From Luteimonas salinisoli (GTDB taxonomy: Bacteria; Pseudomonadota; Gammaproteobacteria; Xanthomonadales; Xanthomonadaceae): a stretch of 64,000 nt of DNA. Position 1 is the first letter of the stretch. Every line of letters begins with the position of its first letter. The position numbers were made by a program, and so were the translations under genes. Below, piece by piece: positions 43,972 through 62,040 of the stretch. Below the pieces are notes generated by a model. It had not been told where the DNA came from. It ran no database searches and saw nothing but the letters and a program-made list of their open reading frames with translations. The stretch is from contig NZ_JACCKA010000094.1 in NCBI RefSeq assembly GCF_013425525.1, positions 10,435 to 74,434 on the forward strand, written 5' to 3'.

Positions 43972-43985
43972 CTGATCTGGATCAA
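43972..43985 (+). promoter_or_regulatory. FNR/DNR box before azurin
   Basis: CTGATctggATCAA, one mismatch from the consensus. It is centred 41.5 bp before about 44020, with a CACACT -10-like sequence at 44008-44013, giving a leader of about 30 bases to the azurin ATG. Confidence 0.75.
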
Positions 43986-44051: not shown

Positions 44052-44522
44052 ATGATCCGTCAACTTTCCGCCGCCGGCCTGCTCTGCGCCGTCGGCCTGT
44101 CCGGCCTGCTCGTCTCCGCCCCGGCGCAGGCCGCCGGCTGCAGCGCCACCGTCGAAAGCAACGATGCCATGCAGTTCTCGACCAGGGCGCTGGCCATCCC
44201 GGCGTCCTGCAAGGAGTTCGAGGTCACCCTGAAGCACACCGGCCAGCTGCCGGTGGTGGCGATGGGCCACAACTTCGTGGTCGGCAAGACCAGCGATATC
44301 AACGGCATCAATGCCGACGGGATGGCGGCCGGCGCCGACAATGGCTACGTCAAGCCGGGCGACGCCCGGGTGATCGCGGCCAGTTCGCTGATCGGCGGCG
44401 GGCAGACCACCACGGTCAAGATCCCGGTGGGCAAGCTCAAGGCCGGCGAAGACTACACCTTCGTCTGCACCTTCCCCGGCCACGCGGCGATCATGCGCGG
44501 CACGCTGAGCCTGGGCCAGTAG
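44052..44522 (+). CDS. azu: Azurin
   Basis: Periplasmic blue copper protein, 156 residues with a 27-residue signal peptide (cleavage after AQA). Counting from the mature Ala the type 1 copper ligands fall exactly at His46, Cys112, His117 and Met121 (GHNFVV and VCTFPGHAAIM), and the Cys3-Cys26 disulphide pair is present. Azurin can donate electrons to copper nitrite reductase, which fits NirK further along. It has its own FNR-type box and a terminator after it. Confidence 0.97.
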   Translation: MIRQLSAAGLLCAVGLSGLLVSAPAQAAGCSATVESNDAMQFSTRALAIPASCKEFEVTLKHTGQLPVVAMGHNFVVGKTSDINGINADGMAAGADNGYVKPGDARVIAASSLIGGGQTTTVKIPVGKLKAGEDYTFVCTFPGHAAIMRGTLSLGQ

Positions 44523-44631: not shown

Positions 44632-45045
44632 ATGACCGAGCACGCCCTCCCCGGCCGCGACGAGATCACTCGGCTGGTCGACCGCTTCTACGACAAGGTG
44701 CGCCGCGATCCGCTGCTCGGGCCGGTGTTCGCTCCGGCCGTGTCCGACTGGGATGCGCACAAGGCCACCCTGGTGGCGTTCTGGAGTTCGGTGATGCTGG
44801 GCACCGGCGCCTACCGCGGCAATCCGATGGCCGCGCACCGCCCCCACCCGATCGTCGACCAGCATTTCGCGCACTGGCTGGCGCTGTGGCGCGAAACCGC
44901 GTGCGAGGTGCTGCCGCCCGTCGCCGCCGCGCGCATCTGCGACCGTGCCGAGCGCATCGCCGCCAGCCTGCGCTACGGCCTGGGGCTGGACCCGCGACGG
45001 CCGTTGCGCAAGAGCGTTCCGTGCGCGCATCTGCGCGGCGATTGA
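44632..45045 (+). CDS. Group III truncated haemoglobin
   Basis: Haem protein of 137 residues of the TrHbP/Ctb family: start LVDRFYDKVRRDPLLGPVF, W at FWSSVMLGTGAY, and the proximal His probably in DQHFAHWLALW. Such globins bind O2 or NO; Campylobacter Ctb belongs to the NO response. It sits between azurin and hemN. No separate FNR box is seen directly before it, and the azurin terminator lies 23 bases upstream of its start, so its promoter is unclear. Confidence 0.9.
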   Translation: MTEHALPGRDEITRLVDRFYDKVRRDPLLGPVFAPAVSDWDAHKATLVAFWSSVMLGTGAYRGNPMAAHRPHPIVDQHFAHWLALWRETACEVLPPVAAARICDRAERIAASLRYGLGLDPRRPLRKSVPCAHLRGD

Positions 45046-45090: not shown

Positions 45091-46497
45091 ATGCACAATC
45101 CGCCCGCCCTCGATACCGCCCTGCTGCAGCGCTACGACCGACCCGGCCCGCGCTACACCTCCTATCCGACCGCGCCGCAGTTCGGCGCCGGCTTCGGCGA
45201 AGCGCAGCTGCGCGAGGCGGTGCTGGCCAGCAACGGCGACCCGATCCCGCGACGGCTGTCGCTGTACCTGCACGTGCCGTTCTGCATGAGCCCGTGCTTC
45301 TACTGCGGCTGCAACCGCATCATCACCCGCGACCTGGCCCGCGGCGAGCACTACCTGGTGCGGCTGTACCGCGAGATCGCGGCGATGGCGGCGCTGTTCG
45401 ACCGCGACCGCGAGGCGATCCAGGTGCATTTCGGCGGCGGCACGCCCAATTTCCTCTCGCCGGCGCAGTTGGCCGAGGTGCTGGACACCCTGCGCCGCCA
45501 GTTCCTGTTCTCGACCAGCCCCGAGCGCGACATCTCGATCGAGCTGGACCCGCGTTTCGTCTCCCCTGCCGACGTCGGCGAGCTGGCGGCATCCGGCTTC
45601 AACCGCGCCAGCCTCGGCGTGCAGGACTTCGACCCGGCCGTGCAGGCGGCGGTCAACCGGATCCAGTCGGTGGAGCAGACCCTGGCGATCATCGCCGCCT
45701 GCCGCAACCACGGCTTCCGCTCGGTCAACGTCGATCTCATCTACGGTCTGCCGCGGCAGACCCTGGAAGGCTTCGGGCGGACCCTGGACACGGTGGTGAA
45801 GGCGCGCCCCGACCGGCTCGCGGTGTACGGCTATGCGCACCTGCCGGAGCTGTTCCGGCCGCAGAAGCAGATCGATGCCTCCGAGCTGCCGGATGCCGCC
45901 ACCCGCCTGGCGCTGCTGCAGCTGGCGATCGACAAGCTCACCGGCGCCGGTTACGTCTACATCGGCATGGACCACTTCGCCCTGCCCGACGACGATCTGG
46001 CCACCGCCCAGGCCCGCGGCGGCCTGCACCGCAATTTCATGGGCTACACCACCCACGCCGACACCGACCTGGTGGGGCTGGGGGTGAGCGCGATCAGCCA
46101 CATCGGCGACAGCTTCAGCCAGAACCCGCGCGACCTGCCGAGTTGGCAGCGCGCACTGGACGAGGGCCGGCTGCCGGTGTTCCGCGGGATGCGCCTGACC
46201 GAGGACGACCAGCTGCGCGCAGACCTGATCCAGGCGCTGATGTGCCAGGGGGAGATCCCGGTCGGGGCGCTGGAGCGGCGCTACGCCATCGATTTCGACA
46301 GCTATTTCGCCGCCGAGCTGGAGCGCCTGCAGCCGCTGGTGGCCGATGGCCTGGTGCGGCTCACGGCTGGCCGGATCCACGCCACCTCGCAAGGACGGCT
46401 GCTACTGCGTAACATTGCGATGTGCTTCGATCGATACCTACACCAGCCGGCCGCACTGGCCACCGACGCCACTCCGCGGTTCTCGCGCGCCATCTGA
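45091..46497 (+). CDS. hemN: Oxygen-independent coproporphyrinogen III oxidase
   Basis: Radical-SAM enzyme of 468 residues that makes protoporphyrinogen IX without O2. The cluster motif is CMSPCFYCGC (Cys65, Cys69, Cys72 plus the extra Cys74 typical of true HemN), then HFGGGTPN and the HemN C-terminal domain. The ATG at 45091 fits the family N-terminus (ALLQRYDRPGPRYTSYPTA). No Shine-Dalgarno sequence precedes it. The FNR-type box 42 bp upstream and the following fnr gene repeat the hemN-anr arrangement of pseudomonads. Confidence 0.96.
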   Translation: MHNPPALDTALLQRYDRPGPRYTSYPTAPQFGAGFGEAQLREAVLASNGDPIPRRLSLYLHVPFCMSPCFYCGCNRIITRDLARGEHYLVRLYREIAAMAALFDRDREAIQVHFGGGTPNFLSPAQLAEVLDTLRRQFLFSTSPERDISIELDPRFVSPADVGELAASGFNRASLGVQDFDPAVQAAVNRIQSVEQTLAIIAACRNHGFRSVNVDLIYGLPRQTLEGFGRTLDTVVKARPDRLAVYGYAHLPELFRPQKQIDASELPDAATRLALLQLAIDKLTGAGYVYIGMDHFALPDDDLATAQARGGLHRNFMGYTTHADTDLVGLGVSAISHIGDSFSQNPRDLPSWQRALDEGRLPVFRGMRLTEDDQLRADLIQALMCQGEIPVGALERRYAIDFDSYFAAELERLQPLVADGLVRLTAGRIHATSQGRLLLRNIAMCFDRYLHQPAALATDATPRFSRAI

Positions 46498-46516: not shown

Positions 46517-47269
46517 GTGAGCGGGACCGCGTTTCCGCGCCAGGACGCGCGCACCCTCGCCGACGATGGCGACTCGCTGCATTTCTGTTCCACCTGCGCG
46601 TTCTCGCAGGCGTGCATGGCCGAGGGCATGGACAAGGCCGACCTGCTCGACCTGCACATGCTGGTCGAGCACGTCGGCCCGCTGCGCGCCGGCGACCACG
46701 TGTTTCGCGAGGGCGACGCGTTCGAGGCGATCGCCGCGGTGCGCTCGGGCACGGTCAAGACCTACACCGTCGACCGCGACGGCCACGAGCACGTGCTCGG
46801 GTTCTATTTTCCCGGCGAGGTGATCGGCCTGGACGGCATCCACGGCGACCGCTACCCGTGCAACGCGGTGGCGCTGGATACGGTGATGCTGTGCCGGTTC
46901 TCGTTCCCGAAGATCTCGGTGCTGGCGACCCAGCTGCCTGGGCTGCAGAAGCACCTGTTCCGCCTGCTCAGCCGCGACATCGGCCGTGCCGCGCTGCTGG
47001 CCGGCGACTGGACCGCCGACCAGCGCATGGCGGCGTTCCTGGTGGGGCTGTCGCGGCGGCTCGCCGCGCGCGGGTTCTCGCCCAACCGCTTCCAGCTGAC
47101 CATGGCGCGCACCGACATCGCCAACTACCTGCGCCTGGCCCCGGAAACCGTGAGCCGGGTGCTGCGCCGGTTCCAGCAGGACCGGCTGCTGCTGGTCGAT
47201 CGGCGCGAGGTGGAACTGCTCGACCGCGCCCAGCTCGACGCCCTGGCCGAGCCGCTGCTGCGCGACTGA
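46517..47269 (+). CDS. FNR/ANR-type oxygen-responsive transcription regulator
   Basis: CRP/FNR-family activator of 250 residues. An N-terminal cysteine cluster C-x2-C-x5-C (Cys24, Cys27, Cys33) and a fourth Cys126 (VMLCRFSF) match the 4Fe-4S ligands of E. coli FNR, so it should sense O2 and possibly NO. The cyclic-nucleotide-like beta-roll follows, then a dimer helix and a helix-turn-helix (DIANYLRLAPETVSRVL) with the E-x2-SR recognition residues for TTGAT. A GTG start at 46517 is preferred; longer in-frame starts would run back through hemN. It is the obvious regulator for the boxes at 35-61 kb. Confidence 0.93.
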   Translation: MSGTAFPRQDARTLADDGDSLHFCSTCAFSQACMAEGMDKADLLDLHMLVEHVGPLRAGDHVFREGDAFEAIAAVRSGTVKTYTVDRDGHEHVLGFYFPGEVIGLDGIHGDRYPCNAVALDTVMLCRFSFPKISVLATQLPGLQKHLFRLLSRDIGRAALLAGDWTADQRMAAFLVGLSRRLAARGFSPNRFQLTMARTDIANYLRLAPETVSRVLRRFQQDRLLLVDRREVELLDRAQLDALAEPLLRD

Positions 47270-47375: not shown

Positions 47376-47389
47376 TTGACCTGGATCAT
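47376..47389 (+). promoter_or_regulatory. FNR/DNR box before the NO reductase
   Basis: TTGACctggATCAT, 57-70 bp before the start codon, with a leader holding AGGGAGA as the ribosome site. The -10 element is not clear. It is the only obvious signal in the 176-bp gap after the fnr gene. Confidence 0.75.
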
Positions 47390-47445: not shown

Positions 47446-49770
47446 ATGGGGGACACCCGCAAGCTGTGGATAGGACTGGCGATCCTGCTGATCGCCTCGT
47501 TCTCGGTGCTGCTGTGGTCGGGCACCGAGATCAACCGCAACGCACCGCCGATGCCGGAACGGGTGCTGTCCGAGGACGGCGGCGTGGTCTACACTCGCGC
47601 CGACCTCGAGCGCGGCCGCCAGGTCTGGCAGTCGATCGGCGGCATGCAGTTGGGCTCGATCTGGGGCCATGGCGCCTACGTCGCGCCGGACTGGAGCGCC
47701 GACTGGCTGCACCGCGAGGCGGTGACCATCCTCGACCGCTGGGCGCGGGCCGAACACGGCAGCGCATTCGCCGAGCTGCCGGCCGACGACCAGTCGGCGC
47801 TGCAGGGCCGGCTGCAGCGGATGATGCGGCGGAACACCTACGACGTGGACGCCGGGACGATCACCCTGAGCGCCGACCGGGTCGCCGCGATCTCCGACGT
47901 CGCCGACCACTACATCAGCCTGTTCGGCAACGCACCGGAAACCGCCGAACTGCGCGAAGCCTACGCGATGAAGAACGACACCGTGCCCGATGCCGAGCAT
48001 CGCCGCGCGCTGGCCTCGTTCTTCTGGTGGACCGCCTGGGCCGCCACCACTGAGCGCCACCTGGGCGCCGACGACACCTTGGCGCCCGAGCGCCCCGCGT
48101 TCGAGAACCGCAAGGTCACCTACACCAACAACTGGCCCGGCGAGCCGCTGGTGGGCAACACCCCGCCGCCGAGCACCTGGGTGTGGTCGGCCTTCAGCGT
48201 GATGTTCCTGATCGCCGGCATCGCCATCCTCGGCTGGCACCACGCCGTCACCCACGGCCAGGACGACGGCCACCGCATCCCCGACAAGGATCCGCTGGCG
48301 GCGCTCAAGGTCACCCCGTCGATGCGCGCCACCGCCAAGTACTTCTGGGTGGTGCTGGCGCTGTTCCTGGTGCAGATCCTCTTCGGCGCGATGACCGCGC
48401 ACTACCAGATCGAGGGTCAGGAGGCCTACGGCTTCGCCCTGGCCGAGGTCCTGCCGTACTCGATCACCCGCACCTGGCACACCCAGCTGGCGGTGCTGTG
48501 GATCGCGGTGGCCTGGCTGGGGACCGGGCTCTACATCGCCCCGGCGATCTCCGGGCACGAGCCGCGCTTCCAGCGCCTGGGAGTGAACTTCCTGTTCGTC
48601 TGCCTGCTGGTGATCGTGGTGGGCGCGTTCGCCGGCCAATGGCTGGCGGTGATGCAGAAGCTGGGACTGGACAACAACTTCTGGTTCGGCCACCAGGGCT
48701 GGGAGTACGCCGACATCGGCCGCTTCTGGCAGTGGTTCCTGTTCATCGGCCTGCTGCTGTGGCTGACCCTTGTGGGACGCTCGCTGTGGCCCGTGCTCAC
48801 GGGCCCGAAGACCGATACCAAGGCCATCGTCGGCCTGCTGTTCCTGTCCACGGTCGCGATCGGGGTGTTCTTCGCCGCCGGCCTGATGTGGAAGGAGCAC
48901 ACCCACATCTCCATCGTCGAGTACTGGCGCTGGTGGCTGGTGCACCTGTGGGTCGAGGGCTTCTTCGAGGTGTTCGCCACCGCGGTGATGGCGCTGATCT
49001 TCACCAAGCTGGGCCTTTTGCGCGCCTCCACGGCGGCGGTGGCGGTGCTGTTCGCCACCATCGTGTTCATGACCGGCGGCGTGCTCGGCACCCTGCACCA
49101 TCTCTACTTCGTCGGCAGCCCGACCGCGGTGATCGCGCTCGGGGCCAGCTTCAGCGCGCTGGAAGTGGTGCCACTGGCCTACATCGGCTTCGAGGCCTAC
49201 CACACCTGGCGCCTGGGCAAGGCGACCCCGTGGATGCAGCGCTACCGCTGGCCGATCTACTTCTTCCTGTCGGTGTCGTTCTGGAACCTGGTGGGCGCCG
49301 GGCTGTTCGGCTTCCTGATCAATCCGCCGCTGTCGCTGTACTACATGCAGGGGCTCAACCTCACACCGCTGCACGGGCACACCGCACTGTTCGGCGTCTA
49401 CGGCATGCTCGGCATCGCCCTGGTGCTGTTCTGCATGCGCGGGCTGCGTCCCAACCAGGTGTGGAACGAGAAGGCGCTACGGCTGAGCTTCTGGGGCCTC
49501 AACATCGGCCTGGCGCTGATGGCGGTGCTGACCCTGCTGCCGCTGGGCACGATGCAGCTGCTGGCGGCGATCGAGCACGGCTACTGGTACGCGCGTTCTG
49601 CGGACTTCATGCAGAAGCCGATCGTCGACTTCCTGGTGTGGATGCGGGTACCGGGCGACACGATCTTCAGCGTCGGCGCGGTGGCGCTGGTCTACTTCGT
49701 GATCCGGCTGTGGATCAGGCCGAAGCTGGAACAGCCCGATGCGGAACGCTCGGAGGTCCGCAGCGGCTGA
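47446..49770 (+). CDS. norZ: Quinol-dependent nitric oxide reductase (qNor)
   Basis: Single-subunit NO reductase of 774 residues: takes electrons from quinol and reduces two NO to N2O in the inner membrane. The N-terminal extension between the first two helices (about residues 40-240, with GRQVWQSIGGMQLGSIWGHG) is the cytochrome-c-like fold without a CxxCH haem motif that marks qNor. The NorB core has histidines in TRTWHTQLAVLW, LHHLYFVGSP and HGHTALFGVYG, for haem b, haem b3 and FeB. It is complete, has its own FNR box and ends in a strong hairpin. Confidence 0.96.
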   Translation: MGDTRKLWIGLAILLIASFSVLLWSGTEINRNAPPMPERVLSEDGGVVYTRADLERGRQVWQSIGGMQLGSIWGHGAYVAPDWSADWLHREAVTILDRWARAEHGSAFAELPADDQSALQGRLQRMMRRNTYDVDAGTITLSADRVAAISDVADHYISLFGNAPETAELREAYAMKNDTVPDAEHRRALASFFWWTAWAATTERHLGADDTLAPERPAFENRKVTYTNNWPGEPLVGNTPPPSTWVWSAFSVMFLIAGIAILGWHHAVTHGQDDGHRIPDKDPLAALKVTPSMRATAKYFWVVLALFLVQILFGAMTAHYQIEGQEAYGFALAEVLPYSITRTWHTQLAVLWIAVAWLGTGLYIAPAISGHEPRFQRLGVNFLFVCLLVIVVGAFAGQWLAVMQKLGLDNNFWFGHQGWEYADIGRFWQWFLFIGLLLWLTLVGRSLWPVLTGPKTDTKAIVGLLFLSTVAIGVFFAAGLMWKEHTHISIVEYWRWWLVHLWVEGFFEVFATAVMALIFTKLGLLRASTAAVAVLFATIVFMTGGVLGTLHHLYFVGSPTAVIALGASFSALEVVPLAYIGFEAYHTWRLGKATPWMQRYRWPIYFFLSVSFWNLVGAGLFGFLINPPLSLYYMQGLNLTPLHGHTALFGVYGMLGIALVLFCMRGLRPNQVWNEKALRLSFWGLNIGLALMAVLTLLPLGTMQLLAAIEHGYWYARSADFMQKPIVDFLVWMRVPGDTIFSVGAVALVYFVIRLWIRPKLEQPDAERSEVRSG

Positions 49771-49839: not shown

Positions 49840-49853
49840 GTGACCTGGATCAA
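49840..49853 (+). promoter_or_regulatory. FNR/DNR box before nnrS
   Basis: GTGACctggATCAA, centred 41.5 bp before A of the nnrS ATG (49888); a GATCCT -10-like sequence is at 49876-49881. A class II promoter here would give a leaderless transcript. Confidence 0.75.
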
Positions 49854-49887: not shown

Positions 49888-51123
49888 ATGGAATCACCAC
49901 CTCCTTCCGTTCCCCCGACCCGGGTCTCGCCGCGCCTGCTCGGCGCGGCGCCGCACCGGCTGATGTTCTTCATCGGCGCCGGCAACCTGCTGCTGGCGAT
50001 GGCCTGGTGGACCGCCTGGCTGGCGGCGTCGCGCTGGCCGGCCCTGTCGATGCCGCAGCCGGAGCCGTATGCGGGCTGGCTGCACGCGTTCGTGATGCAG
50101 TACCAGGTGCTGCCGAGCTTCATCTTCGGCTTCCTCCTCACCACCTTCCCGAAATGGACCGGTCAGCCGGATTTCGAACGCTGGCGCTATGCCCCGGTCG
50201 GTCTCGGGCTGATGGGTGGCCAGCTCGCCACCCTGCTCGGTGCGGTGGGCTGGGAGGCCGGGATCGTGGTCGGCCTGTTGATGACCATCGCCGGCTGGGC
50301 CGCGGGGCTGGCGACCCTCGCGCCGCTGCTCTGGCGCGAGCAGGGCGTCACCTGGCATGCGCGATCCTGCTTCGCGGCGCTGGCGCTCGGCATGGCCGGG
50401 GTACTGGCGTGGACCGCGTTCGTGCTCGGCGCCTCGCCGCTGTGGGCCTTCGCCAGCATCAAGCTCGGCACGTTCGGCCTGCTGCTGCCGGTCTACGTCA
50501 CCGTGGCCCACCGCATGTTCCCGTTCTTTGCCAGCCGCGTGGCCCGCGACTACCAGCCATGGCGGCCGATGTGGCTGCTGGCGCTGTTCTGGCCGCTGGC
50601 GCTTGCGCACCTGGCGCTGGAACTGGCGCACGCCTATGGCTGGCTGTGGCTGGTGGACCTGCCGCTGCTGGCGCTGTCGGCGGCGATGCTGCTGCGCTGG
50701 TGGCCGCGCGGCGACAAGCCGGGCATCCTCGCGGTGCTGTTCATCGGTCTGGCCTGGTTGCCGATCACCTTCGCGCTGTATGCCGGCCAGAGCGTCGCCT
50801 ACGCGCTGACCGGCGTGTACTGGCTCGGCCGCGGCCCGGCGCACGCGCTGTTCATCGGATTCTTCGGCAGCGTGCTGGTGGCGATGGTCACCCGGGTCAC
50901 CCAGGGCCATTCCGGGCGGCCATTGACGATGTACGCGGCGGCGTGGTTCGCGTTCTTCGCCATCCAGCTGGTCGCGGTACTGCGCGTGGTGGCGGAAGTC
51001 GCCCCCGACCCCATGGCCTGGCAGGTCGCCGCAGCGGTAGGCTGGCTGCTGGCATTCGCGCCGTGGGTGGCGCGCATCGGCCGTATCTACCTCAGCCCCC
51101 GCATCGACGGCCGCCCCGGCTGA
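49888..51123 (+). CDS. nnrS: NnrS family protein
   Basis: Inner-membrane haem-copper protein of 411 residues with about 12 helices, the family motifs HRLMFFIGAGNLLL near the N-terminus and AHRMFPFFASRV in the middle. NnrS protects against NO stress, probably by limiting dinitrosyl-iron damage. ATG 49888 is chosen; an earlier in-frame GTG (49840) lies inside the FNR box. No Shine-Dalgarno sequence is visible. It is followed by sirB2 after 23 bp and heads a four-gene unit. Confidence 0.93.
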   Translation: MESPPPSVPPTRVSPRLLGAAPHRLMFFIGAGNLLLAMAWWTAWLAASRWPALSMPQPEPYAGWLHAFVMQYQVLPSFIFGFLLTTFPKWTGQPDFERWRYAPVGLGLMGGQLATLLGAVGWEAGIVVGLLMTIAGWAAGLATLAPLLWREQGVTWHARSCFAALALGMAGVLAWTAFVLGASPLWAFASIKLGTFGLLLPVYVTVAHRMFPFFASRVARDYQPWRPMWLLALFWPLALAHLALELAHAYGWLWLVDLPLLALSAAMLLRWWPRGDKPGILAVLFIGLAWLPITFALYAGQSVAYALTGVYWLGRGPAHALFIGFFGSVLVAMVTRVTQGHSGRPLTMYAAAWFAFFAIQLVAVLRVVAEVAPDPMAWQVAAAVGWLLAFAPWVARIGRIYLSPRIDGRPG

Positions 51124-51146
51124 CGGACCCGCAAGGACAGGAACCG

Positions 51147-51548
51147 ATGATCGAGTTCTACCCGCAGATCAAGCACGCCCACATCGGCCTGGCGCTCGCC
51201 AGCGGCGCGCTGTTCGCGCTGCGCGGCGCGGCGGCGCTGGCCGGCATGCGCTGGCCGCACTGGCTGGCGGTGCGCTGGACCAGCTGGAGCGTGGATACCG
51301 CGCTGCTCACCGCGGCGCTGATGCTGCTCACCATCCTGCCGGGCGCGCTGTACGCCAATGGCTGGCTGGCGGTGAAGGTCACCCTGATCGTGGTGTACGT
51401 GGTGCTCGGTGTGCTGACGCTCAAGCGCGGGCGCTCGCGCGGCGCGCGAGCCGGCTTCTACGTGGCCGCCCTGGCGACCTTCGCGATGATCTACAGCATC
51501 GCCCGCGCGCACCACCCGCTGGGATTCCTGCATGTCCATTTCGCCTGA
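51147..51548 (+). CDS. SirB2-family membrane protein
   Basis: Inner-membrane protein of 133 residues with four helices and the SirB signature (YPQIKHAHIGLALASGALF, ILPGALYANGWLAVKV, HHPLGFL). The family is named after a Salmonella locus, but its function is unknown. Members are frequent next to NO and denitrification genes. AGGACAGG precedes the ATG. It overlaps the decarboxylase gene by 17 bp, so expression is coupled. Confidence 0.88.
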   Translation: MIEFYPQIKHAHIGLALASGALFALRGAAALAGMRWPHWLAVRWTSWSVDTALLTAALMLLTILPGALYANGWLAVKVTLIVVYVVLGVLTLKRGRSRGARAGFYVAALATFAMIYSIARAHHPLGFLHVHFA

Positions 51549-53508
51549 CCTGGCGCCGCTGGCCTCCGCCGCCCCGCCGCGCGACCCCGACCGTGCCCTG
51601 CTCGACGCGCTGTTCCTCGGCCCGTACGGCGAGAACGACACCATGCTCGAGAAGCTGGTGACCGAATTCCTGCGCGATCACGTCTACTGGCGCCGCAATT
51701 TCCACCCCGAGGATCCACCGGCAATCTCGACCCGCGCCGCCCAGCACCCCGACTACCAGGCCTTCGAGGCCCGCTTGCGCGGCGAGCTGCACCAGCTCTC
51801 GGCGGCGCTGAAGCGCTCGGTGCCGTTCCACAGCCCGCGCTATATCGGCCACATGGCCTCGGACCTGCTGCTGCCCGGCCTGGCCGCGCAGATCCTCACC
51901 CTGCCCTACAACCCGAACAACGTCAGCGAGGACGCGGCGCCGGTCACCATCGATCTGGAGATCCGGGTCGGGCTGCAGCTGGCACGCATGCTGGGCTACC
52001 CCCACGATCCGCTGCTGCCGGACTGCGCCTTCGGCCACCTGACCTCCGGCGGCACCGTCGCCAACTACCAGGCACTGCGCCTGGCGCTGGCGCTGAAGGC
52101 CTTTCCGGTGGCGCTGCGCGCCGCCGCGGTGCCCGATCTCGTGCTGCCGGCCGACGACTGGGCCGCGTTCAATACCGGCCCGCAGGCGTCCACGGAGCTG
52201 CTCGAGCAGTGGCTGGCCTGGCTGGCCGCGCAGCCGCCGCGCGAACGGCGGCGCTGGCGCGACGCGGTGCAGGCGCAGCGGATCGAATCACTGGGCATGG
52301 TCGGGTTCTTCGCCCGCCACCCCGGGCTGCGGGTACCGAAGGTGCTGGCGCCGATCACCGCGCACTATTCGTGGAGCAAGGGCCTGAAGCTGCTCGGCCT
52401 GGGCCGCGACCAGCTGGAGCTGCTGCCCGAGCGCGGCATGCGCCTGGATGCCGAGGCCCTGGAGCGGACCCTGCAGCGCTGCCAGCGCGAACGCCAGCCG
52501 GTGCTGATGGCGGTGGCGGTGCTCGGCACCACCGAGTACGGCACGGTCGATCCGGTCGACGCGGTGGTGGCGGCGCGCGCGCGCGCGCTGACATCCGGGC
52601 TCGGCTTCAGCGTGCACGTCGACGGCGCCTGGGGCGGCTACCTGGCCACGCTGTTCCGCAACGAAGACGGCAGCCTGCGCGATATCGGCGAGGTCCGCGC
52701 CGATTACGCCAGTTTCCCGCTGCCCGAGGTGCACGCGGCATTCGCCGCCCTCGGCCACACCGATTCGGTGACCGTCGATCCGCACAAGCTCGGCTACCTG
52801 CCCTACGGCGCCGGCGCCTTCGTCTGCCGCGACCACCGGGCGGTGGCGCTGCTGGCCGAAACCGCCGACTACGTGTTCCAGGACACCGGCGCATCCGACT
52901 ACATGACCCGCTACCGCCAGCTCGGCCAGTTCGTTCCCGAGGGCTCGAAGTCGGGCGCCGCCGCGGCCGCGGTCTACGTCACGCACAAGGTGCTGCCGCT
53001 CGACCACGCCCATTTCGGCCGCCTGCCGCGGCAGACGGTGCTCGCCGCGGAGGCGTTCCACGCCCGCGCGGAGCTGCTGGCATCGGAACTGGAGGGCGTG
53101 GCACGCGTGACGGTACCGTTCGCGCCGGACAGCAACCTCGTGTGCCTGGCGATCAACCCGGCGGGCAATACCGGGCTGACTGCGGCCAACGCCTTCGTGC
53201 GCCGGATCCACGACGAACTGCGCTGCGACCCGCGCCAGCCGCTGCAGCTGCGGGAGTTCTTCGGTTCGATGACCACGCTGCGGCCGGAGGCCGTAGGCGG
53301 GCCGGAGATGCATCGTATCCTCGCCTCGATCGGCATCGATCCGGCAACGCTCGATCCCGACGGCGGCCATGACGACGATCGACTGGTGATCCTGCGCCAT
53401 ACGCTGATGAATCCGTACCTGATCGACCACACCAACGGCATCAGCTACATCGACCTGTATCTCCAGCACCTGGGCAGGCGGATCCGCAGCCTGCTGACGC
53501 CGCAGTGA
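51532..53508 (+). CDS. PLP-dependent group II decarboxylase-like enzyme
   Basis: Cytosolic enzyme of 658 residues in the glutamate/aromatic-amino-acid decarboxylase superfamily. Motifs include SPRYIGHMASD near the start, LTSGGTVANYQ (cofactor phosphate), the Asp of HVDGAWGG for the pyridine nitrogen, and the PLP lysine in VDPHKLGYLPYG. The chain is about 150 residues longer than typical bacterial glutamate decarboxylases. The substrate cannot be read from sequence; family range includes Glu, Asp, Tyr and cysteine sulphinate. It overlaps sirB2 and is coupled to the next PLP gene by GTGA. Confidence 0.88.
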   Translation: MSISPDLAPLASAAPPRDPDRALLDALFLGPYGENDTMLEKLVTEFLRDHVYWRRNFHPEDPPAISTRAAQHPDYQAFEARLRGELHQLSAALKRSVPFHSPRYIGHMASDLLLPGLAAQILTLPYNPNNVSEDAAPVTIDLEIRVGLQLARMLGYPHDPLLPDCAFGHLTSGGTVANYQALRLALALKAFPVALRAAAVPDLVLPADDWAAFNTGPQASTELLEQWLAWLAAQPPRERRRWRDAVQAQRIESLGMVGFFARHPGLRVPKVLAPITAHYSWSKGLKLLGLGRDQLELLPERGMRLDAEALERTLQRCQRERQPVLMAVAVLGTTEYGTVDPVDAVVAARARALTSGLGFSVHVDGAWGGYLATLFRNEDGSLRDIGEVRADYASFPLPEVHAAFAALGHTDSVTVDPHKLGYLPYGAGAFVCRDHRAVALLAETADYVFQDTGASDYMTRYRQLGQFVPEGSKSGAAAAAVYVTHKVLPLDHAHFGRLPRQTVLAAEAFHARAELLASELEGVARVTVPFAPDSNLVCLAINPAGNTGLTAANAFVRRIHDELRCDPRQPLQLREFFGSMTTLRPEAVGGPEMHRILASIGIDPATLDPDGGHDDDRLVILRHTLMNPYLIDHTNGISYIDLYLQHLGRRIRSLLTPQ

Positions 53509-54614
53509 ACGCGCCCGGTACTCCGGTCGCGAGCATCGACGAACGCGACTGGACCGCCCAGGCGCTGGGGCGGCTGCGCCAGGAGGCGGCGCGCTCGGCC
53601 GACACCCATCTGTTGAAACTGGAATTCCGCGGATTCCCGGGCATCGACTTCTACTTCAAGGACGAGGCCGCCCATCCCACCGGCAGCCTCAAGCACCGAC
53701 TAGCGCGCTCGCTGTACCTGTATGCGCTGTGCAACGGCCGGTTGCGCGACGGGCAGCCGGTGGTGGATGCGTCGTCGGGCAGCACCGCGATCTCCGAGGC
53801 CTGGTTCGCGCGCCTGCTGGGGCTGCAGTTCACCGCGGTGATGCCGGCCTGCACGGCGCCGCGCAAGATCGCCGACGTCGAGGCGCTGGGCGGGCGCTGC
53901 GATCTGGTGCCGGACCCGGCGCAGGTCCACGAGCGTGCCGCCCGGCACGCCGCGGCCGGCGCCTGCCACCTCGACCAGTTCGCGCTGGCCGAGCGCGCCA
54001 CCGACTGGCGCGGCAACAACAACATCGCCGAATCGATCCTCGGCCAGCTCGCCGGCGAGCCGCACCCGGAACCGGCATGGATCGTCTGCGGGGTGGGCAC
54101 CGGCGGCACCTCGGCCACCATCGGCCGCTACCTGCGCTATCGCGGTCTGCGCACCCGGCTGTGCGCGGCGGAACCCGACGGCAGCGCCTTCGTGCACGGC
54201 TGGCGCGGCCGCGATCGCGACGCGGTGTGCAGCCGCCCCACGGTGATCGAAGGCATCGGCCGGCCGCGGGTCGAGCCGGGATTCCTGTTCGAGATCGTCG
54301 ATGAGGTGATCGAGGTCGCCGATGCGGCCTCGATCGCGGCGATGTCGGTCCTCGAGCAGCATCTCGGCCGGCGCTATGGGGGCTCCTCCGGCACCAACCT
54401 GGTCGCCTGCCTGCTGTTGGCCACGCGCATGCGCGAGCGCGGCGAACGCGGCAGCATCGTCAGCCTGCTCTGCGATCACGGCGAGCGCTACGACGGCACC
54501 CTGCTGGATCCGGACTGGCTGCGACGCAATGGCCTCGATCCGGCGCCGGCCGCCGCTGCCCTGCACGCCACGATCGCCAGCGGCCGCTGGCATCCGCCCC
54601 GAGGCGGCGCCTGA
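53505..54614 (+). CDS. PLP-dependent cysteine synthase/cystathionine beta-synthase-like enzyme
   Basis: Fold-type II PLP enzyme of 369 residues. The PLP lysine is in PTGSLKHR, the usual substrate-binding loop TSGNTG is replaced by SSGSTA, and the phosphate loop is GVGTGGTSATIG. The altered loop argues against ordinary O-acetylserine sulphhydrylase activity. The start is GTG at 53505 overlapping the decarboxylase stop, so both enzymes are probably made together and act in one short pathway of unknown product behind an FNR-type box. Confidence 0.87.
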   Translation: MNAPGTPVASIDERDWTAQALGRLRQEAARSADTHLLKLEFRGFPGIDFYFKDEAAHPTGSLKHRLARSLYLYALCNGRLRDGQPVVDASSGSTAISEAWFARLLGLQFTAVMPACTAPRKIADVEALGGRCDLVPDPAQVHERAARHAAAGACHLDQFALAERATDWRGNNNIAESILGQLAGEPHPEPAWIVCGVGTGGTSATIGRYLRYRGLRTRLCAAEPDGSAFVHGWRGRDRDAVCSRPTVIEGIGRPRVEPGFLFEIVDEVIEVADAASIAAMSVLEQHLGRRYGGSSGTNLVACLLLATRMRERGERGSIVSLLCDHGERYDGTLLDPDWLRRNGLDPAPAAAALHATIASGRWHPPRGGA

Positions 54615-54654: not shown

Positions 54655-55143
54655 TCAGTGCGCCGGGTGATGCGACGCGGGACCCGGAAACCCCGGATCG
54701 TCGAACAGGCGCGGATAGTCCTCGAGCGCCGCATGCATCGGCGCCAGCGCTTCGCGGTCGGCCGGGTCTTCGCGCAGCGCCGCGGCGCCCGCCATTAACC
54801 GCGCGAGCAGCCCGTGCAGGGCGACGTCCGGCTCGGTGGGCAGTTCGCAATTGGCGAACATGTCGGCCACCGCATCGTCCACCGCACCGGCCATGCGCAG
54901 GACCTGCTCCCGGTCGGGCGATTGCGCGCGATCGAGGCGTTCGAGTGCGCCATGCGCGCGCCGCATGCCCGCCATCAGCGGCGCGTCGGGCGTCCAGCGC
55001 ACATGGTCGGCATCGACCGGCACCGCAGCGGCGTGATGGGCCTGATGGTCGGCATGCGCCCCCGCCGGCGGTTCCGGCGCCGCGTGGGCCAGGCCGGCGC
55101 AGAGCAGGAGCGGTAGCGCGACGAGCACGGTTCTGGACTTCAT
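54655..55143 (-). CDS. Small His-rich exported protein (DnrO-like)
   Basis: Exported 162-residue protein with a clear signal peptide (VLVALPLLLCAGLAHA) and a His-rich mature N-terminus (HADHQAHHAAA), then a helical body with a single Cys in FANCELPTEPD and a C-terminal SHHPAH. The histidine clusters suggest metal (copper) binding in the periplasm. I think it resembles proteins labelled DnrO in Xanthomonas denitrification loci but cannot confirm this. GGAGA precedes the ATG, and a weak FNR-like sequence lies 47-60 bp upstream. Confidence 0.7.
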   Translation of the reverse strand: MKSRTVLVALPLLLCAGLAHAAPEPPAGAHADHQAHHAAAVPVDADHVRWTPDAPLMAGMRRAHGALERLDRAQSPDREQVLRMAGAVDDAVADMFANCELPTEPDVALHGLLARLMAGAAALREDPADREALAPMHAALEDYPRLFDDPGFPGPASHHPAH

Positions 55144-60527: not shown

Positions 60528-60541
60528 CTGACCTGAATCAA
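60528..60541 (-). promoter_or_regulatory. FNR/DNR box before the DUF2946-copper receptor pair
   Basis: Plus-strand CTGACctgaATCAA. It is the nearer of two boxes to the minus-strand gene; class II spacing would put the start of transcription about three bases before the ATG at 60490. It is 39 bp from the second box, so the divergent promoters may share regulator molecules. Confidence 0.7.
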
Positions 60542-60579: not shown

Positions 60580-60593
60580 TTGACGCAGGTCAT
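60580..60593 (+). promoter_or_regulatory. FNR/DNR box before nirK
   Basis: TTGACgcagGTCAT, 68-81 bp before the nirK ATG. GACCAT at 60616-60621 is at the -10 position for class II activation, giving a leader of about 33 bases that contains AAAAGGAAG. Confidence 0.72.
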
Positions 60594-60660
60594 GGCCGCG
60601 GGCGGGCCGGACGTCGACCATGACGCCAAGAACCGACGAACCCCAAAAGGAAGCTTCGAG

Positions 60661-62040
60661 ATGAAAGACCTGATCCTGCTCTTCGCCCTGGCCGCCGCCG
60701 CCGGCTTCACGCCGCAGGCGATCGCCGCGCGCGACGCCGCCGCCGACGTCACCCCGGTGGCCGACGTCACCTTCAGCATGCGTACCGAGATCTCCAACGG
60801 CCAGCTGGTCTTCGTCGGCAATGCCGGCGCGATCAAGGACGTGGTGAACCCCGAACTCAAGGTGCCCGAAGGCGCGGTGGTGGCCATCACCGTGACCAAC
60901 GGCGACGGTGCCATGCATGACATCGCGGTACCGGAGTTCGGCGCGCAGTCCGACCAGATCGTCGGCCAGGGCTCGGCCACCACGATCGTATTCCGCGCCA
61001 CCAAGGCGGGCACCTTCGAATACGTCTGCACCATCCCCGGCCACCGCGCCGCGGGCATGTTCGGCAAGCTGACCGTCGGCGACGTCGAGGAAGTCGTCAG
61101 CACCGCGGTCGACATCGCCAAGAACCCGTCCGAGGTGGCAACGCCAGTGGGCAACCGCGGCCCGCAGACCCTCACCTACGATCTGGTCACCACCGAGGTC
61201 GAGGGCAAGCTGTCGGACGGCAGCACCTACCGCTACTGGACCTTCAACGACACCGTGCCCGGGCCGCTCCTGCGCATCCGCACCGGCGACACCGTCACCA
61301 TCAACCTGAAGAACGCCGAAGACAGCGTCAACATCCACTCGGTCGACTTCCACGCCGTGACCGGCCCGGGCGGCGGCGCTGCCGTGACCCAGGTGGCCCC
61401 GGGGCAGACCAAGAGCTTCACCTTCAAGGCGCTCAACCCCGGCCTGTACGTGTACCACTGCGCCACGCCGATGATCGCCCACCACATCTCCAACGGCATG
61501 TACGGGATGATCCTGGTCGAGCCGGAAGGCGGCCTGCCGGCGGTCGACAAGGAGTTCTACATCATGCAGGGCGAGCTCTACACCGCGCAGAAGCACGGGT
61601 CGCGCGGGCTGCAGGAGTTCTCGGTCGACAAGCTGCTGGACGAGCGCCCGGAACACCTGATGTTCAACGGCTCGATGGACGCGCTGACCAAGACCTACAA
61701 GATGGAGGCCGACGTCGGCGACACCGTGCGCATGTACTTCGGCGTCGGCGGGCCCAACCTGATCTCCAGCTTCCATGTGATCGGGGAAGTGTTCGACCGG
61801 GTCTTCGACCAGGCATCGCTGACCAGTCCGCCGCTGACCGACGTGCAGACCACGCTGGTGGCGCCGGGCGGCGCGACGGTGGTGGAGTTCAAGGTCGACT
61901 ATCCCGGCAAGTACATCCTGGTCGACCACGCGCTGTCGCGGGCCGAGAAGGGACTGGCCGGCTTCCTCCACGTCAACGGCGAGGCGGACCCGACGATCTT
62001 CAACACCAGCGAGACGATCGACCACTCCTCGGGTCACTGA
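60661..62040 (+). CDS. nirK: Copper nitrite reductase with fused N-terminal cupredoxin
   Basis: Periplasmic NO-forming nitrite reductase, 459 residues with a signal peptide of about 22 residues. Residues 35-140 form an extra cupredoxin domain with its own type 1 copper set: His86, Cys123, His128, Met133. The two catalytic domains follow, with type 1 ligands His226, Cys267, His275, Met280, type 2 ligands His231, His266 and His423, and catalytic Asp229. The T1 loop (MIAHHISNGMYG) is of the AniA class. The fusion resembles the Hyphomicrobium three-domain enzyme and may take electrons directly from a c-type cytochrome. A terminator follows. Confidence 0.96.
   Translation: MKDLILLFALAAAAGFTPQAIAARDAAADVTPVADVTFSMRTEISNGQLVFVGNAGAIKDVVNPELKVPEGAVVAITVTNGDGAMHDIAVPEFGAQSDQIVGQGSATTIVFRATKAGTFEYVCTIPGHRAAGMFGKLTVGDVEEVVSTAVDIAKNPSEVATPVGNRGPQTLTYDLVTTEVEGKLSDGSTYRYWTFNDTVPGPLLRIRTGDTVTINLKNAEDSVNIHSVDFHAVTGPGGGAAVTQVAPGQTKSFTFKALNPGLYVYHCATPMIAHHISNGMYGMILVEPEGGLPAVDKEFYIMQGELYTAQKHGSRGLQEFSVDKLLDERPEHLMFNGSMDALTKTYKMEADVGDTVRMYFGVGGPNLISSFHVIGEVFDRVFDQASLTSPPLTDVQTTLVAPGGATVVEFKVDYPGKYILVDHALSRAEKGLAGFLHVNGEADPTIFNTSETIDHSSGH

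Follow-up and report, generated by a model that had tools for sequence, protein, structure and literature searches.

The window, meaning the whole stretch of 64,000 nucleotides that was analyzed, carried the genes nnrS and sirB2 followed by genes for a PLP decarboxylase (dec) and a PALP enzyme (cds1-like), with genes of nitrite and nitric oxide reduction on either side. The features were located as follows.

44052–44522, plus strand: azurin (TIGR02695, 178 bits; box at 43972)
44632–45045, plus strand: bacterial globin (PF01152, E = 5.7e-9)
45091–46497, plus strand: hemN (TIGR00538, 553 bits; exact box at 45042)
46519–47269, plus strand: fnr-like regulator, start codon uncertain (Fnr model PRK11161, 194.7 bits against a cut-off of 228; Cys-x2-Cys-x5-Cys near the start)
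47376–47389, plus strand: FNR-type box before norB, TTGACCTGGATCAT
47446–49770, plus strand: norB, qNor type with a fused cytochrome-c-like domain (PF22085 and PF00115)
49840–49853, plus strand: FNR-type box before nnrS, GTGACCTGGATCAA, one mismatch to TTGA-N6-TCAA
49888–51123, plus strand: nnrS (PF05940, E = 1e-58)
51147–51548, plus strand: sirB2 (PF04247, E = 2.7e-28)
51532–53508, plus strand: dec, tyrosine/aromatic amino-acid decarboxylase-like PLP decarboxylase (PF00282, E = 2e-20; TIGR03811, 304 bits; tyrosine decarboxylase (TDC) of L. brevis, E = 1e-82; fold)
53505–54614, plus strand: cds1-like, L-cysteine desulfhydrase-like PALP enzyme (PF00291, E = 2.1e-48; NF052478, 461.5 bits)
54655–55143, minus strand: h162, His-rich recurrent neighbor with a signal-like start (predicted four-helix bundle)
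60580–62040, plus strand: nirK, N-terminal cupredoxin domain, start uncertain (TIGR02376, 344 bits against a cut-off of 296)

The gap between nnrS and sirB2 was 23 bp, while sirB2 and dec overlapped by 17 bp and dec and the cds1-like gene by 4 bp. The preliminary description had proposed these four genes as a tight operon behind an FNR-type box; the position and strand of the genes were confirmed, and the box was found 34 bp 5' of the nnrS ATG. The sequence TTGA-N6-TCAA is the form of FNR/ANR sites, and an upstream match with at most one mismatch was taken as the mark of an FNR regulon member, which describes the box at 49840. By the same measure, boxes were found upstream of nnrS in 26/30, norB in 35/38, hemN in 27/27, ccoN in 7/8, h162 in 22/28 and the neighboring fabB in 1/36 scored loci, some genomes being counted under two locus ids. 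The boxes at nnrS and norB were therefore beyond chance when set against fabB.

On the same strand and 5' of the operon lay ccoN-, ccoO-, FixG-, FixH- and CcoI-type genes, then azurin, globin, hemN, the FNR-like regulator and norB; h162, fabB, fabA, a TonB receptor and then nirK followed on the 3' side. The window held 18 sites with no more than one mismatch, among them those before ccoN, azurin, hemN, norB and nnrS, as well as those where nirK starts. From these genes and boxes we read the region as a putative nitrite-to-N2O island whose control is of the FNR type and whose tail is the nnrS operon. The nos_propeller domain (PF18764) had no match in the window's own genome. The boxes at nirK were at 60528 and 60580. 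The globin gene, sitting between azurin and hemN, may encode a further NO-related protein, and a similar globin gene was seen within the same type of cluster at another locus (L167).

By sequence, the nearest enzymes to dec were the L. brevis and E. faecalis tyrosine decarboxylases and the aromatic amino-acid decarboxylase of Psilocybe (E 1e-82 to 3.6e-75). The same enzymes filled the top 18 rows of a fold search, where the next match was about 17 orders of magnitude weaker, although the identity to them in the fold alignments was only about 27%. The predicted model of dec had a mean pLDDT of 73 with 146 of its 658 residues under 50, so that the fold matches confirm the family and not the pocket. 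When aligned with the L. brevis enzyme, dec kept K392, D328, H241, T298, S440, Y420, H98 and Y398, residues named in PMC4904194, and differed by Y331 to Trp and S586 to Thr. Equivalents of the PLP lysine (K392), the PLP-stacking histidine (H241) and the protonating tyrosine (Y420) were all among those kept. The score of dec against the bacterial tyrosine decarboxylase model TIGR03811 (304.2 bits) was far from the cut-off of 905 bits, and the protein is therefore called TDC-like only. It is likeliest a working decarboxylase, probably for an aromatic amino acid. The TDC of lactic acid bacteria has a role in the acid response together with an exchanger, according to PMC4904194. Such an acid-resistance role was not favored for dec, since no amino-acid/amine exchanger was recognized among the recurrent neighbors viewed, many of which were named by eye and some left unnamed.

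The PALP enzyme matched the Cds1 model NF052478 over its full length (profile positions 1–353 of 354) with 461.5 bits, the best fit among the PALP models. Cysteine synthase models gave 136.2 (the next model), 107.3 and 96.8 bits, and the curated cut-offs of 351 for cysK and 394 for cysM were missed with 96.8 and 82.2 bits. Two further PALP genes in the window's genome reached 91 and 89 bits against the Cds1 model. Because 461.5 bits lies below the curated cut-off of 600 for NF052478, the enzyme is named Cds1-like rather than Cds1. In a quick tree the Cds1-like sequences fell into two groups of 56 and 13 rows, each on one side of a branch with SH-aLRT 100; the tree was repeated without two paralog rows (branch length 10; one apparently in the wrong frame), L108 and the duplicate of the window. 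The SSGSTA loop was present in 54 of the 56 sequences in the enzyme's clade (the other two gave no motif match) and in 12/14 of the sister clade, the remaining two having SSGNTA. As the loop is usual in both clades, it marks the family and not the nnrS operon. The enzyme had earlier been taken for a cysteine-synthase-like protein with an altered substrate loop. SSGSTA is indeed there, but as the normal loop of a Cds1-like family, and on this and the model scores the cysteine synthase reading was rejected; judged by sequence, the enzyme is L-cysteine desulfhydrase-like (Cds1-like). Cds1 (Rv3684) of M. tuberculosis converts cysteine to H2S and pyruvate, as given in PMC8389258. The window enzyme resembles it in matching the Cds1 model from end to end, but stays under the cut-off of that model and lies in an FNR-type NO operon.

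Of 200 genomes of the order, 36 had a decarboxylase match and 68 a Cds1-like enzyme (E ≤ 1e-40). NorB (E ≤ 1e-100) was present in 24/36 genomes with the decarboxylase versus 24/164 without it (Fisher p ~1e-9), and NnrS in 32/36 versus 74/164 (Fisher p ~8e-7), both tests ignoring relatedness. In 16 of the 36 dec genomes, dec lay within 2.5 kb of norB or nnrS. NorB accompanied operon-type Cds1, assigned by an identity of at least 65%, in 20/23 genomes, compared with 13/46 genomes of the other clade. At the level of loci, 107 were entered and 94 distinct dec sequences of adequate length were kept, the rest being dropped because dec was missing, the hit was short or the sequence was a duplicate; the distant rows (L170–L172 and L174–L186) and the other Cds1 clade (L102–L112) were left out of this count. 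One of norB, nnrS and sirB2 was within 6 kb of dec in 46/94 loci and in 48/94 was not, and these nearness counts are a lower bound because several contigs were short. On a quick dec tree, the label for NO-gene nearness changed no fewer than 18 times, and well-supported branches forced at least 9 of these changes.

Where dec and cds1 occurred together, norB or nnrS was within 6 kb in 37/47 loci, versus 7/47 dec loci without cds1 (9/47 counting sirB2). The coupling of the two PLP genes to NO genes thus held, and the outcome named beforehand as speaking against it, namely that the pair would lie for the most part apart from NO genes, was not seen. Gaps of at most 150 bp joined sirB2 to dec in 36/39 measured loci and dec to cds1 in 49/51 (median 45 bp). 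The order norB-(nnrS)-sirB2-dec-cds1 was conserved in Lysobacteraceae and Rhodanobacteraceae, and the organisms with the set included Rhodanobacter, Lysobacter, Thermomonas, Luteimonas and Dokdonella. A reshuffled order, norB-cds1-nnrS-sirB2-dec, with all members retained, was seen in Lysobacter lacus (L158). As a control, the housekeeping gene fabB was within 7 kb of dec in 30/91 loci and norB in 33/91, so that nearness alone is weak proof; what carries the argument is how closely the genes are joined on one strand, together with their boxes and their co-occurrence. To judge from these genome comparisons, the link of the NO-removal genes with the two amino-acid enzymes is real. The nnrS of Thermomonas sp. 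S9 (L151:8171-9387) was recovered in three tblastn pieces and may be broken or misassembled. In a more distant family of the order, a second, divergent nnrS was seen near dec (L089, L092 and L204).

When dec was not behind norB, nnrS, sirB2 or cds1, it had an FNR-type box of its own in 38/44 loci, exact in 14; when it was behind one of these genes, an own box was found in 7/40 loci. Random 371-base windows from the same loci held a box in 12.0% and an exact box in 2.5% of cases (duplicates were removed from the dec and cds1 comparisons). It follows that dec carries an FNR-type signal wherever it is placed, and these predicted own boxes are the strongest single result. At one locus lacking cds1 (L123), dec had two exact boxes of its own. 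The signal was weaker for cds1 genes that did not follow norB, nnrS or sirB2, with a box at 3/6 of them and no exact one. A class search outside the order found dec relatives in 10/369 genomes; among seven such relatives, three had a box and three lay beside ubiUV, hemN or norB. A product used under nitrosative stress had been suggested for the operon. The link to NO genes held, but the visible control is of the FNR type and common to hemN and ccoN, hence broader than nitrosative stress.

We consider it somewhat more probable than not that each of the two enzymes has its own low-oxygen function: one would cleave cysteine to H2S and the other form an aromatic amine, both being co-expressed with NO removal in the tail of an FNR-controlled denitrification or low-oxygen island. 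FNR would turn the genes on at low O2, qNor would reduce NO to N2O and NnrS would limit NO damage. The Cds1-like enzyme would convert L-cysteine to H2S, pyruvate and ammonia; this may lower the level of free cysteine, which takes part in NO-iron complexes, and the sulfide released could feed the rebuilding of NO-damaged iron-sulfur centers. Independently, the decarboxylase would form the amine of an aromatic amino acid, with tyrosine or phenylalanine as the likeliest substrate; as to the use of this amine, we can only guess at the tuning of aromatic amino-acid metabolism once oxygen-dependent routes are shut. The two PLP enzymes would then be co-regulated companions of NO respiration and not obligatory steps of one pathway. 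We favor these two functions because of the Cds1 scores, the likeness and conserved residues of dec, its own boxes, the link to NO genes and the separability of the two genes. Counted against them are the missed model cut-offs, the nearness of fabB, the 48 of 94 dec loci without NO genes within 6 kb, the boxes at only three of six lone cds1 genes and the fact that the co-occurrence tests ignore relatedness.

The preliminary description had the two enzymes jointly making one compound. Acting in series, they might form a small NO-protective amine or thiol; the PALP enzyme could, for instance, make a beta-substituted alanine that is decarboxylated in the second step. Such a pathway would fit the usual adjacency of dec and cds1 where both are present and their sharing of an operon with NO genes at most loci that have the pair. 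However, 7/23 genomes with operon-type Cds1 had no dec match and 20/36 dec genomes had no operon-type Cds1 (some of these genomes being incomplete), and at two loci (L093 and L099) cds1 stood behind norB and sirB2 with dec absent. Since each gene occurs without the other, an obligate two-step pathway is unlikely and the pair looks like a preferred combination; the claim of one joint product was weakened, and we regard synthesis in series as distinctly improbable. It also seems unlikely, though a little less so, that the genes form a module for coping with NO itself, in which sulfide made on site by the Cds1-type enzyme scavenges NO or rebuilds damaged centers while the decarboxylase disposes of nitrated tyrosine (e.g., 3-nitrotyrosine) or makes a protective amine. 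If true, the operon would couple NO respiration with the production of H2S and amines.

The main rival is a general role in low-oxygen metabolism, in which the pair would accompany the O2-independent synthesis of heme and ubiquinone and would not bear directly on NO. It holds this place because UbiU/UbiV, Fnr-controlled in E. coli, recur near the pair: ubiU or ubiV was within 7 kb in 19/47 pair loci and 10/47 others. In E. coli, ubiUVT is under Fnr control and UbiU and UbiV belong to the anaerobic ubiquinone genes, as described in PMC10470549. The box type shared with hemN and ccoN fits a general role too, as does the position of dec near ubiUV or hemN in three loci beyond the order (L200, L201 and L202). 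On the other hand, the pair shares a same-strand operon with norB, nnrS and sirB2, mostly with the short sirB2-dec gaps given above, and operon-type Cds1 goes with NorB while the other clade does not. We rate this general role as possible but rather unlikely. Supply of sulfide by the Cds1-like enzyme for the copper-sulfur center of nitrous oxide reductase was also considered, as a gene read by eye as nosL (with no NCBIfam match) directly precedes dec-cds1 in some Rhodanobacter loci. PF18764, however, matched in only 14/200 genomes of the order, which included neither the window's genome nor the genome (G179) with the nosL-like gene at L064. This explanation is very improbable in general, and for the window's genome it was rejected because nos_propeller had no match there.

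FNR/ANR-controlled norB-nnrS denitrification gene clusters are of a known kind, and the window shares with them norB, nnrS, hemN, an fnr-like gene, azurin, nirK and FNR-type boxes. Its nnrS operon differs by the addition of sirB2, an aromatic-type decarboxylase and a Cds1-like enzyme. No description of this gene set was found in the open-access literature, most subscription journals being outside the scope of the search. The predicted enzymes belong to known families, and it is their conserved regulatory and genomic setting that we did not find described. In this setting, a common low-oxygen switch would link NO removal with the metabolism of sulfide and aromatic amines. If the enzymes act like their relatives, H2S and a biogenic amine would be made just when the bacteria meet NO, with a bearing on NO tolerance and N2O release. 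The arrangement also offers an operon-level clue to SirB2.

A prephenate-dehydrogenase-like gene (cluster c71; L097:10040-10828 and like genes) was found after dec or cds1 in 8/91 loci and adjoined ubiD in several of them. The protein encoded by h162 was without a Pfam or NCBIfam match, and a fold search of its predicted structure against the PDB gave nothing at E ≤ 0.001 and otherwise just loose four-helix bundles, cytochrome cb562 variants among them. Its Cys, Asp and His residues were invariant, and h162 recurred near dec, including in the more distant loci L089, L092 and L101.
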